DNA of 64,000 nucleotides from Jiella endophytica (lineage in GTDB: Bacteria > Pseudomonadota > Alphaproteobacteria > Rhizobiales > Rhizobiaceae). The stretch lies in assembly GCF_004519335.1 (NCBI RefSeq), contig NZ_SOZD01000003.1:1-64000 (forward strand), given 5' to 3'. The position numbers were made by a program, and so were the translations under genes. Below, piece after piece: positions 45,971 to 50,854 of the stretch (positions are counted from its first letter, which is position 1; the number at the start of each line of letters is the position of its first letter). The notes beneath the pieces were generated by a model that saw only the letters and a list, made by a program, of their open reading frames with translations, was not told where the DNA came from and did not search any database.

Positions 45971-46552
45971 ATGGACATGCGCAGGCCCATCGTCACAGAG
46001 CGCACCCGTGTCCGGCGCTGGGAGGAGCGCGACCGCGACGCCTTCCATCGCCTCAATCTCGACGAAACGGTCATGCGGTTCTTCCATATGCGCCGGACCC
46101 GCGAAGAGTCCGACGGGGTGATGGACGAGTTGAACGAGCGCCTCGATCGCGACGGCTATTCGTTCCTGGCACTCGATGCCGGCGGGTCCGAAGCGGCGGT
46201 CGGCATCCTCGGCATGGCGATCGTCAAGCCGGTCATGCCCTTTGCGCCGGGGATCGAGATTGGCTGGCGGCTGCTGCCGGATTATTGGGGCAAGGGCTAC
46301 GTCACCGAGGCTGCCGCTGCCTGCCTCGACCGCGCCTTCGCCGAGCCTGATCCTGTCGGCGAGATCGTCAGCTTCTGCAACGAGGAGAACCGGGCATCCG
46401 AGGCGGTCATGCTGCGGCTCGGATTTTCGCGAGCCGAGGATTTCGACCATCCCTCGGTGCCGGCTGACACCCATCCGCATCTCGTCCGCCATCGGCTCTA
46501 TCGCCTGAGGCGGGAGGATTTCGCGCCTGAACGGAAAATGCGGGGCGACTGA
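45971..46552 (+). CDS. GNAT-family N-acetyltransferase (RimJ-like)
   Basis: A 193-residue acetyltransferase. TERTRVRRWEERDRDAFHRL is the RimJ/RimL-type start, the acetyl-CoA loop is GWRLLPDYWGKGYVTEAAAA, and FCNEENRASEAVMLRLGF is the typical C-terminal strand. The acceptor is unknown. ATG at 45971 has GGAGAACATGCC. It converges on the end of the photosynthesis superoperon, 122 bp away, and is divergent from the ClpP-like gene. Confidence 0.88.
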   Translation: MDMRRPIVTERTRVRRWEERDRDAFHRLNLDETVMRFFHMRRTREESDGVMDELNERLDRDGYSFLALDAGGSEAAVGILGMAIVKPVMPFAPGIEIGWRLLPDYWGKGYVTEAAAACLDRAFAEPDPVGEIVSFCNEENRASEAVMLRLGFSRAEDFDHPSVPADTHPHLVRHRLYRLRREDFAPERKMRGD

Positions 46553-46674
46553 GCCGGCAAGTCAGCGGGTCAGGACCTCCGCCCGAACAGTCGCGAACGA
46601 GTGCGACCCCCGCCGCAGCTTGGCGGCGTCCGACGGAAGCGGGCCCAACCCCCGGGCGAGGCAGAGGAGCGGGC

Positions 46675-48744
46675 CTATTCCGCCGGCAGGATGTTGACGG
46701 CCGGCGCATGCACGCTGAGCGGCGGCTCGGCCTCCGGCGCCGGCTCGACCAGCCCGCCTGTCAGATCGCGGAACGCCCGGTCGAGCCACACGGCATCCGG
46801 GTCTGCGCCGATCGCCAGTGCCCGCGGCGTCTCGCCCGGTTTCGGCACATGCGCCGCCATCGAAGCCCTGCCACCGGCGACGTCGAAGCGCAGCCAGCCG
46901 CCGCGGGTCTCGACGATGCCCTTCATCCGGTCGATGCCGCCGCCCTTCCCCTCGACGACCCTTGCGAGCACGGCGCGCAAGGCATCGGCGTCGATCCTGC
47001 CGGAGAGCCGCCGGCTCCATGACGACAGGCCGAGCCCCGGCTCGTCATGGTGATGATGCCCGTGGTGGTCGTGGTGCCCGTGGTGGTCGTGGTGGTCGTG
47101 GTGGTCGTGGTCGTCGTCGTGGGAATGGTCGTGATCGTGGCTGCCCTGGCTGGAGCCGTGATGGTCGTGGCCATGATCGGGGGCGTGACGATCGGGGGCG
47201 TGATGGTGGTGCCCCTCCGACCCTTCGGACACTGCCTCGCCCGCCGCGCCGTGATGGCCGGTTTCGCCGGCCTCGTGACTGTGGCCGGGCGCATGATGAT
47301 GGCGATCTGCGCCGTGGGCGACATGGGCGTGAGCGGGCGCCGGACGGGGGGCGTCATCCTCGTCCACCGCCGCCTCGTGCCACTTCGACAGCGCCGCCGC
47401 CGGGTCGAGCCCGCCCTCGACGACGCCGTAGCGCGCCGTCATGATCGCCGCCGCCGGATTGAGGGCGGTAAGCGTCTCGCGGATGGTCTCGATCTCGCCG
47501 GCCGAGACGAGGTCGGTCTTGTTGAGGATGAACACCGGGGCGAGCTTCGCCTGGATGCGGAAATAGTCCGGCATGCGGGCGAAATCCTTGAGGAACGCCC
47601 CGGCGTCGATCACCGTGTAGAGCCGTAGCGACCTCGTCAGCCCGGCAATCTCGGGCTCGTTGAGGACGCGCAGCAGCGAGGCGACGTCGGCGACGCCGGA
47701 GGGCTCGATCAGCACCCTCTGCGGCTTGATCCTGGCGACCACCTCGCGCAGCTGCATCGAGAGATCCTTGCGCAGCGAACAGCAGATGCAGCCGTTGGAG
47801 AGTTCGACGACATCCGCCCCCTGCCCTTCGAGCAGCGAGCCGTCGATGCCGAGTTCGCCAAAGTCGTTGACGAGGACGACGGTCTTCACGTCGGGATCGG
47901 CCTCGGCCAGCATGTGGCGCAGCGTCGTCGTCTTGCCGGCGCCGAGGAAGCCGACGACGATCTCCGCCTCGAAAGGCTGGCGCTCGCCCCGCGACTTCAG
48001 CGCCGGCGACCAGATGGCGCCGGCCGGCATCGGCAGGACGAGCATCCAGTGTTCGAGGATCGCCAGCGCCATCAGCACCGCCAGGAAGGTGTAGCCCGCC
48101 CGCTCGAAGGCGCTCGCCCCTTCCGCCACCGCCGCGACGACGAGCAGTGCGGTGATCACCGTCGAGATGGTGACGGAGAACGGAAAGAGCAGGTTCATCG
48201 AGCGCTTGTTGAGGAAGCCCTTGAGGAACTCCAGATGCTCCGGCAGGAACTCCTCGTTGAGGTTCCTGACGCCGAAGAAGACGTTGAGCTTAGCGCTCTG
48301 ATGCATCCACCACAGCACCATGAAGGTCCACATGCCGATCTGGTTCGGCGCGCCCCAGGTGAGCCAGACGACGATCGCCGCGGCGGCGATGATTGCAAGC
48401 TCATGGTAGAGGCTGGTCTGCACCGCATGGACGAAGTGCGCGAAGCCCCGGCAGTTCTCCGGGCATGGCTGCTTCCGCGGGCCGGTGACGTAGCCCATGT
48501 AGAAGCTCATCTCCTGCCAGCCCCAGGCGAGCAGGCCGAAGGTGAAGGCGAGATAGGCGCCGGTGACGCTGGCATCCTCGGCCGAGCGCTGCAGCCCGAT
48601 CAGCGAGACGGCGAAGATCAGCGTCGCGCCGATCATCGAGTATTTGAAGGTCTTTTTCGGCAACCCGTCGAGATAGATGATCGCCACGGTCGAGGCCCAC
48701 CAGACGAAAAGGGCGAACAGCGCCGGGTAGAGATATTCGGTCAT
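46675..48744 (-). CDS. puhE: PuhE-CobW fusion: photosynthetic complex assembly protein joined to COG0523 metallochaperone GTPase
   Basis: A single 689-codon frame with no stop. Residues 1 to about 250 are PuhE (DUF3623): multiple TM helices, starting MTEYLYPALFALFVWWASTV and including the Cys-containing GPRKQPCPENCRGFAHF. After a short linker (SRGERQPFEAEI) a complete CobW/COG0523 GTPase follows: Walker A GAGKTTT (268-274), VNDFGELGIDG, the metal-binding CXCC (C319, C321, C322) in SNGCICCSL, NKTD (408-411), then a His-rich segment at 472-566 with 38 His in 95 residues, and a CobW C-terminal domain (about 575-665). No internal start with a ribosome-binding site is evident at the junction. In known gene orders puhE and a separate hemA follow acsF. 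A role in metal delivery to AcsF or Mg/Fe homeostasis is inference. Confidence 0.9.
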   Translation of the reverse strand: MTEYLYPALFALFVWWASTVAIIYLDGLPKKTFKYSMIGATLIFAVSLIGLQRSAEDASVTGAYLAFTFGLLAWGWQEMSFYMGYVTGPRKQPCPENCRGFAHFVHAVQTSLYHELAIIAAAAIVVWLTWGAPNQIGMWTFMVLWWMHQSAKLNVFFGVRNLNEEFLPEHLEFLKGFLNKRSMNLLFPFSVTISTVITALLVVAAVAEGASAFERAGYTFLAVLMALAILEHWMLVLPMPAGAIWSPALKSRGERQPFEAEIVVGFLGAGKTTTLRHMLAEADPDVKTVVLVNDFGELGIDGSLLEGQGADVVELSNGCICCSLRKDLSMQLREVVARIKPQRVLIEPSGVADVASLLRVLNEPEIAGLTRSLRLYTVIDAGAFLKDFARMPDYFRIQAKLAPVFILNKTDLVSAGEIETIRETLTALNPAAAIMTARYGVVEGGLDPAAALSKWHEAAVDEDDAPRPAPAHAHVAHGADRHHHAPGHSHEAGETGHHGAAGEAVSEGSEGHHHHAPDRHAPDHGHDHHGSSQGSHDHDHSHDDDHDHHDHHDHHGHHDHHGHHHHDEPGLGLSSWSRRLSGRIDADALRAVLARVVEGKGGGIDRMKGIVETRGGWLRFDVAGGRASMAAHVPKPGETPRALAIGADPDAVWLDRAFRDLTGGLVEPAPEAEPPLSVHAPAVNILPAE

Positions 48745-48807
48745 GGCGTGACTTCTTTCATGCCGGTTCGGTGGATACATCCGAGAATTTGCGGGGCTTC
48801 GATGCGG

Positions 48808-48937
48808 CGTCATCCTCGGGCTTGTCCCGAGGATCTACTGTCGGCCATTTCGTCCGATTCGTTTCCGAACGGCTTATCTGGCAAAGCTCCGTCGTTGCGA
48901 TGGCAGTAGATCCTCGGGACAGGCCCGAGGATGACGG
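48808..48937. repeat. Paired palindromic repeat, family B variant
   Basis: Inverted arms at 48808-48840 (CGTCATCCTCGGGCTTGTCC onward) and 48903-48937 enclose 62 bp, between acsF and puhE-cobW. It is a variant of the element at 27408-27551. It occupies most of the 210-bp gap, the longest inside the superoperon. Confidence 0.8.
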
Positions 48938-48954
48938 GCGTTACCGCCTTTCGA

Positions 48955-50046
48955 TCACCACGCCGGCTGCAGCCGGCTTTCCGCCGGGATCTCGTTGCGG
49001 ATCGCCGGCAGCGTGTAGAGCCGCGCGAAGGTCAGCGCCGCCGCCGCCTTGCAGCGCCAGACCTTCAGCCGGCCGATCACACCGCCCTGGCGCGAGGCCA
49101 CCTCGATGTCGCGGTTGATCCTCAGCAGCCGCTCGAGCCCCGCCTTGAAGCGCGGATCGTCGATGTCGAGCATCACCGGGAAGACCTGTTTCGAGATTTC
49201 GTTGGTGATGCGGAACACCTTGAAGCCGTAGTCGGACGGATCGAGACCGAGCGCCTTATGGAATTCCGGCCGGGCATGGTCGCGCACATACATCGTCGCG
49301 TAGACGGCGAGGAGGAAGAAGCGGACCCAGAGCTTGTTGCGGCCTTGAAGGGTGTGCCGCTCCGCCCGCATCAGCAGCGAAAACGCCTCGCCATGGCGGA
49401 ACTCGTCGTTGCACCACTTCTCGAACCACTTGAAGATCGGATGGAAGCGCCGCTCCGGATGCTGCTCCAGATGCCGGAAGATGGTGATGTAGCGGGCGTA
49501 GCCGATCTTCTCGGAGAGATAGGTGGCGTAATAGATGAACTTCGGCTGGAAGAAGGTGTACTTCTTTTCCTTGGTGAGGAAGCCGAGATTGACGCCGATG
49601 CCGAACTCCTTCAGCGCGTCGTTGATGAAGCCGGCATGGCGGGCCTCGTCGCGGCTCATATAGGAGAAGAGCTCGCAGATGTCGGGGTTGGTGCCGCGCC
49701 GTTTCATCTCCTTGTAGAGCACGCAGCCGGAGAACTCGGCGGTCAGCGAGGAGACGAGGAAGTCGACGAACTCCTTCCGCAGGCCCTCAGGCAGATCGTC
49801 GAGGGAGATCGTGTCCCAGTTTTCGTCGCGCTTGAAATGGCCCTTGTTGGGGTCGGACTTCATCTCGGCGATGAGCGCGTCCCATTCCCGCCTGACACCC
49901 GAGACGTCGACCTTGTCGAGCTTGTCGAAGTCGGTGGTGTAGAAGCGCGGCGTCAGCAGGGTGTCCTGCTGGGCGGTCCTCGTGGTCTCGTTCGGCGCCT
50001 CGGCGCGGACCGGCCTTGCGTCGGAGATCTTGGCGTGCGCGTTCAT
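48955..50046 (-). CDS. acsF: Oxygen-dependent Mg-protoporphyrin IX monomethyl ester cyclase
   Basis: Diiron enzyme that forms the isocyclic E ring of bacteriochlorophyll using O2. The 363-residue protein has carboxylate/histidine iron ligands in [17 protein letters not shown] (E104), [10 protein letters not shown] (E134, H137) and [11 protein letters not shown] (E215, H218). The ATG at 50044-50046 overlaps the bciE stop by ATGA. Presence of AcsF implies aerobic or semi-aerobic pigment synthesis; an anaerobic BchE is not in the window. It sits between bciE and puhE-cobW in the superoperon. Confidence 0.96.
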
Positions 50047-50345
50047 AGGCTTGCCCTTTCCGAGAAGGAGAATTCGCAAAGTTCCATGAATTCGAAATCG
50101 CCGGTCGCCCGGGTCCACAGCCGCTCCAGCGGGCCGGCCCGGCGGATCGTCGCGTGGCGCCTGAGATAGGCCGTCTCGCCGTAAGGCACCTCGACGGGCG
50201 CGCCATGCACCAGCACCTCGTCGCCTGGCTGGACGGTGACGCCGCCATCGAAGCGGACATGGGCGTGCAGGCTGTCGAAGGTGTTGGAAACCTCGACGGT
50301 GCAGCAGACGTCTTCGGCCCGCTTCTTCAGCAATCGCTCGATCAT
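50043..50345 (-). CDS. bciE: Cyclase auxiliary subunit BciE
   Basis: A 100-residue soluble protein starting [20 protein letters not shown] and containing [17 protein letters not shown] and a C-terminal [14 protein letters not shown]. It is placed directly upstream of acsF with a 4-bp overlap and its own start overlaps puhC by 4 bp. Alphaproteobacterial AcsF enzymes need a small partner, BciE, encoded at this position (known from Rhodobacter sphaeroides). Position, size and remembered sequence features support the assignment, but I cannot align it here. Confidence 0.8.
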
Positions 50346-50854
50346 TTCGAAGCTCCCTCACTGGCGCCTGCGCCGGCAGGCAACATCTTGGCGAAGGCCT
50401 CGGCCTGGAGTTTGCCGAAGGCCCTCAGTTCCACCTGCTGGCGGGTTTCGGGATCCTCGACCACCAGGCGGCCGTCGGATTTCAGCGCCAGGACGAAGGG
50501 CCCGGCGTCGGAAGCGCCCTTGCGGACGCGGTCGCGGCTGAGGTTGCGCAGCACCTCCACCGTGAAGGCGCCCTGCCCCGCAGCCACCTCGACCAGCGGC
50601 TCGCGGCTCGATGCGTCGATCACCGCGACCGAGCCGTCGGCATGCTCGTCGATCTGCAGGCCGCGCGACGCGACGGTGCCGACCTCCGGCGTCTCGGCGA
50701 GGCCGATGCCCGTCGTGCGGCCCATGCCGATCGCCACCAGCGCCGTCAGCGCCAGCGCCCCGGCGCCGATCAGGATCGGCTTCGGGATCGGCTTGTCCTG
50801 ATCCGGGGCGATCTTGATCTGCCCGTTGCGGATGGCGGCAGCGAGACCTCTCAT
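50342..50854 (-). CDS. puhC: Photosynthetic complex assembly protein PuhC
   Basis: A 170-residue inner-membrane protein needed for normal reaction centre-LH1 levels. It has an N-terminal cytoplasmic segment, one TM helix ([19 protein letters not shown], about 27-45) and a periplasmic domain with [18 protein letters not shown] and [15 protein letters not shown]. It lies 15 bp after puhB. The start ATG is at 50852-50854. Length and topology match known PuhC. Confidence 0.92.

Follow-up and report, generated by a model that had tools for sequence, protein, structure and literature searches.

Why does the puhE gene of Jiella endophytica, located among photosynthesis genes, continue in frame into a GTPase of the COG0523 family, and what may such a GTPase do on PuhE? 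The gene was analysed within a window of 64,000 nucleotides (contig NZ_SOZD01000003.1, positions 1 to 64,000), the whole stretch of DNA under study (Table 1). The frame, here called puhE::cobW, extends from an ATG at 48744 to a stop at 46675 with 0 internal stops, has a third-position GC of 0.89 over its whole length and codes for a protein of 74.9 kDa predicted mass. The single uninterrupted frame of PuhE and GTPase read in a first-pass annotation was borne out; it lies on the minus strand, a detail absent there. Pfam assigned residues 1-253 to DUF3623 (360.7 bits), a match spanning the whole family, residues 262-435 to cobW (148.0 bits) and residues 574-660 to CobW_C (30.4 bits, above the cut-off of 22). 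The NCBIfam model TIGR03055 for PuhE scored 322 bits, above its equivalog cut-off of 164. Motif reading revealed GFLGAGKTTT (Walker A), GCICC with the CxCC at residues 319-322, and NKTD. Together with Pfam it confirmed the Walker A, CXCC and NKTD motifs and the CobW C-terminal domain of the first reading, whose count of 38 His in 95 residues was exact. A scan of window positions 46500-49200 for promoters and terminators yielded no match, and PADLOC had none.

Table 1. Features of the puhE::cobW locus in the window.
Feature	Coordinates	Strand	Basis or remark
puhE::cobW fusion gene	46675..48744	minus	689 aa; open frame, Pfam and NCBIfam
PuhE/DUF3623 domain	47986..48744	minus	residues 1-253; 7 membrane helices, predicted N-out/C-in
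C94-x3-C98-x4-H103-x2-H106, putative metal site	48427..48465	minus	spans loop 3, cytoplasmic by prediction, and the beginning of helix 4
H114-E115	48400..48405	minus	conserved together with E231-H232 in 214/218 PuhE rows
H148, helix 5	48301..48303	minus	same fusion-associated Cys/His set; alignment
E231-H232, helix 7	48049..48054	minus	conserved together with H114-E115 in 214/218 PuhE rows
COG0523 GTPase domain	47440..47961	minus	residues 262-435; Walker A, CxCC (47779-47790), NKTD
Linker, residues 436-573	47026..47439	minus	His-rich part 472-566 (38/95 His)
CobW_C domain	46765..47025	minus	residues 574-660; Pfam, AlphaFold2 model
Open frame holding acsF, directly upstream of the fusion	48955..50361	minus	family match from frame residue 119
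bciE-like gene, 100 aa, between puhC and acsF	50043..50345	minus	60% identical to Roseobacter litoralis gene

An assembly error, absent from close relatives, had been considered as the origin of the joined frame. This is not the case. A contig scan covered 75 loci in other genomes; open-frame BLAST recognised 40 one-frame fusions, and a profile search added two (L021, L054), giving 42 of 75, Jiella included, among which L047 lacks the N-terminus at a contig start and L036 and L037 belong to one MAG. Because of these 42 one-frame fusions, an assembly artefact or a chance read-through is practically excluded. The fused GTPases moreover form one clade, and purifying selection acts on both the PuhE and the GTPase part: the GTPase dN/dS was 0.04-0.27 in 11 of 12 pairs tested. 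In favour of an artefact stands a single relative, L030, with a frame broken inside the gene; two further fusions beyond the 42 (L046, L049) were cut by contig ends. In this relative, Jiella pelagia (L030/L120, complete genome), the fusion is split over two frames near residue 314, through either a true inactivation or an error of sequencing. Carriers included Jiella, Aurantimonas, Fulvimarina, Pararhizobium mangrovi, Lichenibacterium minor, Lichenicoccus roseus, Acidiphilium rubrum (L035), Acidiphilium sp. PA, Acetobacteraceae bacterium KSS8 and a number of MAGs. Some fusion-bearing contigs came from genomes with improbable labels (L026, L049, L041, L042, L047 and L023, labelled Kouleothrix, Ferrovum, Thiodictyon or Acidobacteria); such contigs reflect either mis-binning or gene transfer.

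The frequency of the fusion was estimated in four samples of genomes chosen without regard to it. In the class sample (385 genomes) puhE was present in 27, as 3 fusions and 24 plain genes. The order sample (397 genomes) had puhE in 75, of which 70 new ones were classed as 1 fusion, 8 PuhE with a CobW_C domain lacking the GTPase (PuhE-CobW_C) and 61 plain, three split or fragmentary matches being left out. The order of A. rubrum (395 genomes) had puhE in 101; the 88 new and classed comprised 20 fusions, 17 PuhE-CobW_C and 51 plain, the last including a probably cut fusion (G1153), with 11 fragmentary or unfetched matches left out. In the phylum sample (398 genomes) puhE occurred in 31, and the three outside the class were all short frames of 286-304 aa. 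With architecture profiles built from 22 fusions, the window's included, 218 distinct PuhE rows were sorted into three architectures: 48 full and 3 cut or broken fusions, 26 PuhE-CobW_C and 141 plain. The PuhE-CobW_C proteins (e.g., L053, L110, L164, L201, L248) are spread over several PuhE lineages. Of the GTPase-less proteins five were submitted to Pfam, which detected CobW_C in each with an E of at most 0.01 and in one of them above the cut-off; in the intact fusion L009 the domain was unreported by Pfam, though found by the custom profile. In L053 and L248 a His-rich stretch remains ahead of CobW_C.

That genomes lacking the fusion supply the GTPase in trans was considered and rejected on a search of 54 genomes, three of them fusion controls that were all recovered. 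The other 51 had no recognised fusion, and in 50 of them no fusion-type GTPase was found elsewhere (E 1e-30), although four of the 50 carry a generic GTPase with 38-42% identity. Only G1153 has one of the fusion type (56% identity); its GTPase and PuhE both lie at contig ends and are therefore probably one gene cut by the assembly. G1153 was counted as plain PuhE throughout. The window genome itself has two stand-alone COG0523 matches of equal score, each in a frame of 518 aa and on a contig of its own (G000:C11:27504-28031 and C24:269757-270284), either a duplication or an assembly repeat.

The fused GTPases separated as one clade from stand-alone COG0523 proteins, both with all 49 fusions against 48 stand-alone rows (SH-aLRT 99) and in a careful tree of 26 fusions against the 48 (support 100/99). 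The nearest stand-alone rows were three clostridial ones, L058-L060 (95/80), on flagged long branches. Both halves are inherited together: PuhE and GTPase distances of 48 fusions gave a Mantel r of 0.87, with 0.28 as the largest of 2000 permutations. An AU test did not reject the fusions as one PuhE clade (p 0.29). Since the fused GTPases are one clade, the distances agree and a single PuhE clade is unrejected, the fusion most likely arose once. The PuhE-CobW_C proteins as one PuhE lineage were rejected (AU p 6.6e-5). The CobW_C tree, which is weakly rooted and built from 89 columns, is at odds with the PuhE tree on their grouping and places 23 of the 26 in one clade inside the fusion rows (SH-aLRT 90). 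Their scatter may reflect either an older fusion that shed its GTPase or transfer of the CobW_C tail. In the twelfth pair of the selection analysis, L048/L050, the GTPase dN/dS was 0.39 versus 0.16 for PuhE; these fusions have lost CxCC and most of the linker histidines (1-2 remaining), and have kept Walker A and the CCHH residues of PuhE (C94, C98, H103, H106). A Walker A loss indicated by the motif pattern in L048, L050 and L125 was an artefact, the motif being present in the alignment. L048 and L050 as well as the GTPase-less, His-rich L053 and L248 look like stages in the decay of a metal loader with CobW_C kept, hence apparent decay intermediates.

PuhE has seven helices by hydropathy and in AlphaFold2 models (mean pLDDT 72.6 and 75.8), and seven transmembrane segments are stated for DUF3623 in a passage of PMC12423673. 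Lysine and arginine are concentrated in loops 1, 3, 5 and 7 (12 residues versus 2 in loops 0, 2, 4 and 6). This bias puts the C-terminus of PuhE, and therefore the GTPase, into the cytoplasm; by predicted topology the GTPase is tethered on the cytoplasmic side of the membrane. The complete set of C94, C98, H103, H106 and H148 was present in 51/51 fusions, 20/141 plain PuhE and 0/26 PuhE-CobW_C; C98, H103, H106 and H148 individually are fixed in fusions versus 16-25% of plain PuhE. Regardless of H148, CCHH occurred in 25 plain rows without GTPase, two of which (L052, L153) end at contig ends and are probably cut fusions. Once corrected for kinship, the Cys/His association was not significant (p 1 in a sign test on the only three independent pairs with support); kinship alone could produce it. 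The AlphaFold2 models place C94 and C98 in a loop of low confidence. A comparison of the PuhE half with solved membrane folds gave no clear structural match, and a rhodopsin-Arf1 chimera returned by the fold search (TM 0.12) was given no weight.

In 49/49 fusions, 5-6 residues separate PuhE from the GTPase domain. CxCC is kept in 47 of these 49, and the G domain has no other conserved Cys. The second Glu of the stand-alone motif (E297 in the window) was found in 16/49 fusions versus 36/48 stand-alone rows; the NEFG motif of 37/48 stand-alone rows has D for E in the other 11, and D in all 49 fusions. The linker is predicted to be disordered (pLDDT <50 at residues 463-569) and is His-rich in most fusions, with a median of 17 His. 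CxCC is also kept where the linker has just 0-1 His, in Lichenibacterium and two MAGs labelled Ferrovum. Histidine stretches are common in the family: according to passages of PMC2770081, about 40% of 887 COG0523 proteins have them, some with up to 29 His, a length exceeded by the 38 of the window protein.

Tentatively, and at somewhat less than even confidence, we propose that the protein is a membrane-tethered metallochaperone, probably of the zinc type, whose client or switch is PuhE itself. From the predicted cytoplasmic C-terminus of the seven-helix PuhE, with the GTPase following 5-6 residues on, the disordered His-rich linker would gather metal, most likely Zn(II), and the CxCC site would hold it while the GTPase is GTP-bound. 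GTP hydrolysis would then pass the metal to a site of C94, C98, H103, H106 and perhaps H148 at the cytoplasmic face of PuhE, and the loaded or empty state of this site would set the restraint or permission of bacteriochlorophyll production and photocomplex assembly. Pigment synthesis would thus follow the supply of metal and GTP, because site loading would set the effect of PuhE. CobW_C may serve as a docking part that is useful on its own, given the PuhE-CobW_C proteins, which have kept only this domain. In favour of the proposal are the single clade of fused GTPases, the joint inheritance of both halves, the constant junction spacing, the charge bias, the conserved CxCC with no other Cys, the Cys/His set of PuhE, the purifying selection and the lack of a fusion-type GTPase elsewhere in genomes without the fusion. 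Against it stand L048 and L050, which lost CxCC yet keep CCHH, the plain rows that keep CCHH without a GTPase, the kinship behind the Cys/His association, the His-poor linkers of Lichenibacterium and the Ferrovum-labelled MAGs, and the low retention of E297 in fusions. A bolder reading, hardly likely, makes PuhE itself a metalloprotein, the fused GTPase its dedicated in-cis zinc loader and, in the Acidiphilium/Acidocella lineage, this arrangement part of the replacement of Mg by Zn in bacteriochlorophyll; the PuhE-CobW_C proteins would then descend from an older fusion whose loader was lost.

Metal might also be sensed rather than delivered. The GTPase would then be a nucleotide- or metal-responsive switch on the hold of PuhE on its partners (assembly factors, BchM, AcsF), with CobW_C as the contact surface. 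This fits the persistence of CobW_C without GTPase in 26 of the 218 distinct PuhE rows (five checked by Pfam), the two fusions with Walker A but without CxCC, and a passage of PMC9164220 in which target-specific contacts are predicted for the C-terminal domain. The retention of CxCC in 47/49 fusions and the His-rich linker of most favour metal handling, however, and we consider such a switch rather unlikely, although a real possibility.

In the window the fusion is preceded by lhaA, puhA, puhB, puhC, a bciE-like gene and acsF. The Roseobacter litoralis gene at the place of the bciE-like gene carries no name in its record; we take it to be bciE. A gene order puhBC-bciE-acsF-puhE is given in a passage of PMC10576062. 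With the bciE-like gene present, a replacement of the cyclase subunit BciE by the GTPase was rejected. A large part of the gap between acsF and puhE is taken up by an inverted repeat (window 48808-48936) whose 33-bp arms are 97% complementary and stand 63 nt apart, and the gap shows strong RNA folding (z -8.3); the repeat core also occurs in L009 and L030 (Jiella), and the element is possibly a small mobile palindrome. Past the fusion stop follows a convergent GNAT acetyltransferase, and the sole ALAS match of the window genome lies on another contig. The view that the fusion ends the operon thus holds for the window but is not general, as hemA follows puhE in 26/52 fusion loci, Acidiphilium included, in 25/26 PuhE-CobW_C and in 127/141 plain rows. 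In three genomes, L122 (G514), L123 (G405) and L090 (G547), puhE runs in frame and without stop into hemA-like sequence, so that PuhE seems fused to HemA (5-aminolevulinate synthase), the latter identified by eye.

The first-pass annotation had proposed a metal-delivery GTPase tethered to the photosynthetic machinery, for example to load the neighbouring diiron cyclase AcsF. A conserved in-frame tether of a COG0523 GTPase to PuhE is evident; AcsF as the client was not upheld. The adjacency is common, acsF being the recognised gene before puhE in 46/52 fusion rows, and passages of PMC9164220 report that the COG0523 protein Nha3 matures an iron enzyme. However, the same neighbourhood exists without the GTPase in 155 rows (25/26 PuhE-CobW_C, 130/141 plain), the fusion of Lichenibacterium lies about 350 kb from acsF, and bciE is still present in the window. 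Since most acsF-puhE loci lack the GTPase, AcsF alone does not explain it, and iron delivery to the cyclase is improbable. The description of PuhE as a support of reaction centre-LH1 assembly, taken over in the earlier reading, is incomplete in the light of Aklujkar et al. The annotation of TIGR03055 as putative photosynthetic complex assembly protein and the position of the gene after puhA, puhB, puhC and acsF could suggest another iron client. Purple reaction centres in general have a non-haem iron site, which the GTPase might load during assembly with PuhE as the docking part. Most puhE rows lack a GTPase and there is no direct evidence for this role, which we regard as very improbable.

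Nagashima and colleagues are said to have described, in 1997, a Glu at position L168 of PufL as the mark of zinc-bacteriochlorophyll (Zn-BChl) reaction centres, and the reaction centre of A. rubrum presumably has this Glu in place of His. We read pufL in 49 genomes (50 were given, G099 being without pufL): L168 was Glu in 11/26 fusion genomes, which include one broken and one cut fusion, in 0/10 PuhE-CobW_C and in 0/13 plain genomes, G1153 among them. L168 was His in the other 15 fusion genomes, including that of the window. A DNA pattern for L168 Glu detected 4/4 positive controls, 0/2 fusion genomes with His and 0/74 genomes without fusion, ten of the 74 being judged fusion-free by frame length only. 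In the PuhE tree the 11 Glu genomes all belong to a single clade (13 rows, support 98); the overlap of L168 Glu with the fusion is therefore one event, and the link is suggestive only. The sole bacteriochlorophyll of A. rubrum, a fusion carrier, is Zn-BChl, and how zinc enters it is stated to be unknown (passages of PMC7242693 and PMC12654162). In acidophiles the fusion might supply zinc for Zn-BChl or guard the selection of Mg or Zn, with relatives that use Mg having inherited it. The presence in A. rubrum and the contrast of 11/26 with 0/23 other genomes read and 0/74 by DNA pattern speak for this role; the single event and the His of the 15 fusion genomes speak against it, and its probability appears low. 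Three Acidocella-labelled MAGs, G960, G991 and G1043 (PuhE matching L032, L027 and L033), have L168 Glu and may use Zn-BChl.

No description of a PuhE-CobW fusion was found in the literature searched, in agreement with the first-pass annotation, the 2021 COG0523 review being outside that search. The main text of the 2009 COG0523 survey never mentions photosynthesis or a fusion, and PMC10715153 and PMC7677001 mention neither puhE nor CobW. A GTPase fusion is unmentioned in the passages on DUF3623 and in the puhE passages of PMC6052148 and PMC10576062. Neither metal binding nor GTPase activity nor a phenotype was found described for any of the fusion proteins. Both halves belong to known families; the combination of PuhE with a probable metallochaperone is, as far as we found, undescribed. 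Many COG0523 GTPases lack a known client (passages of PMC9164220), and where a metallochaperone forms one chain with a photosynthesis protein, the fusion itself is a pointer to the client. The fusion also offers a handle on the role of PuhE, and makes the Zn entry described as unknown for Acidiphilium (passages of PMC7242693) testable by removal of a single domain.

Compared with known systems, the window protein resembles PuhE (TIGR03055, DUF3623/PF12291) in the whole-family match and the place after acsF, but has in addition the GTPase, the His linker and CobW_C in the same chain. By sequence and fold the best solved match to the fused GTPase is YjiA (PDB 1NIJ, 4IXM). The fused GTPase shares the G motifs, including NKxD, as well as CxCC and CobW_C with the COG0523/G3E GTPases, and is distinguished from them by its tether to a membrane protein and its own clade. 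To the zinc metallochaperone ZigA (NF038288) the G domain matched in part (98.4 bits, below the cut-off of 600). The similarity to CobW (TIGR02475) is a family resemblance only, with 93.7 bits against a cut-off of 332.1. CobW serves a tetrapyrrole metal-insertion pathway and CobWs have an extra Cys pair absent from homologues, while YeiR and YjiA preferentially acquire Zn (passages of PMC7895991). The fused gene stands among photosynthesis genes, and its G domain, without an additional conserved Cys, is unlike CobW and like the Zn-preferring YeiR and YjiA.
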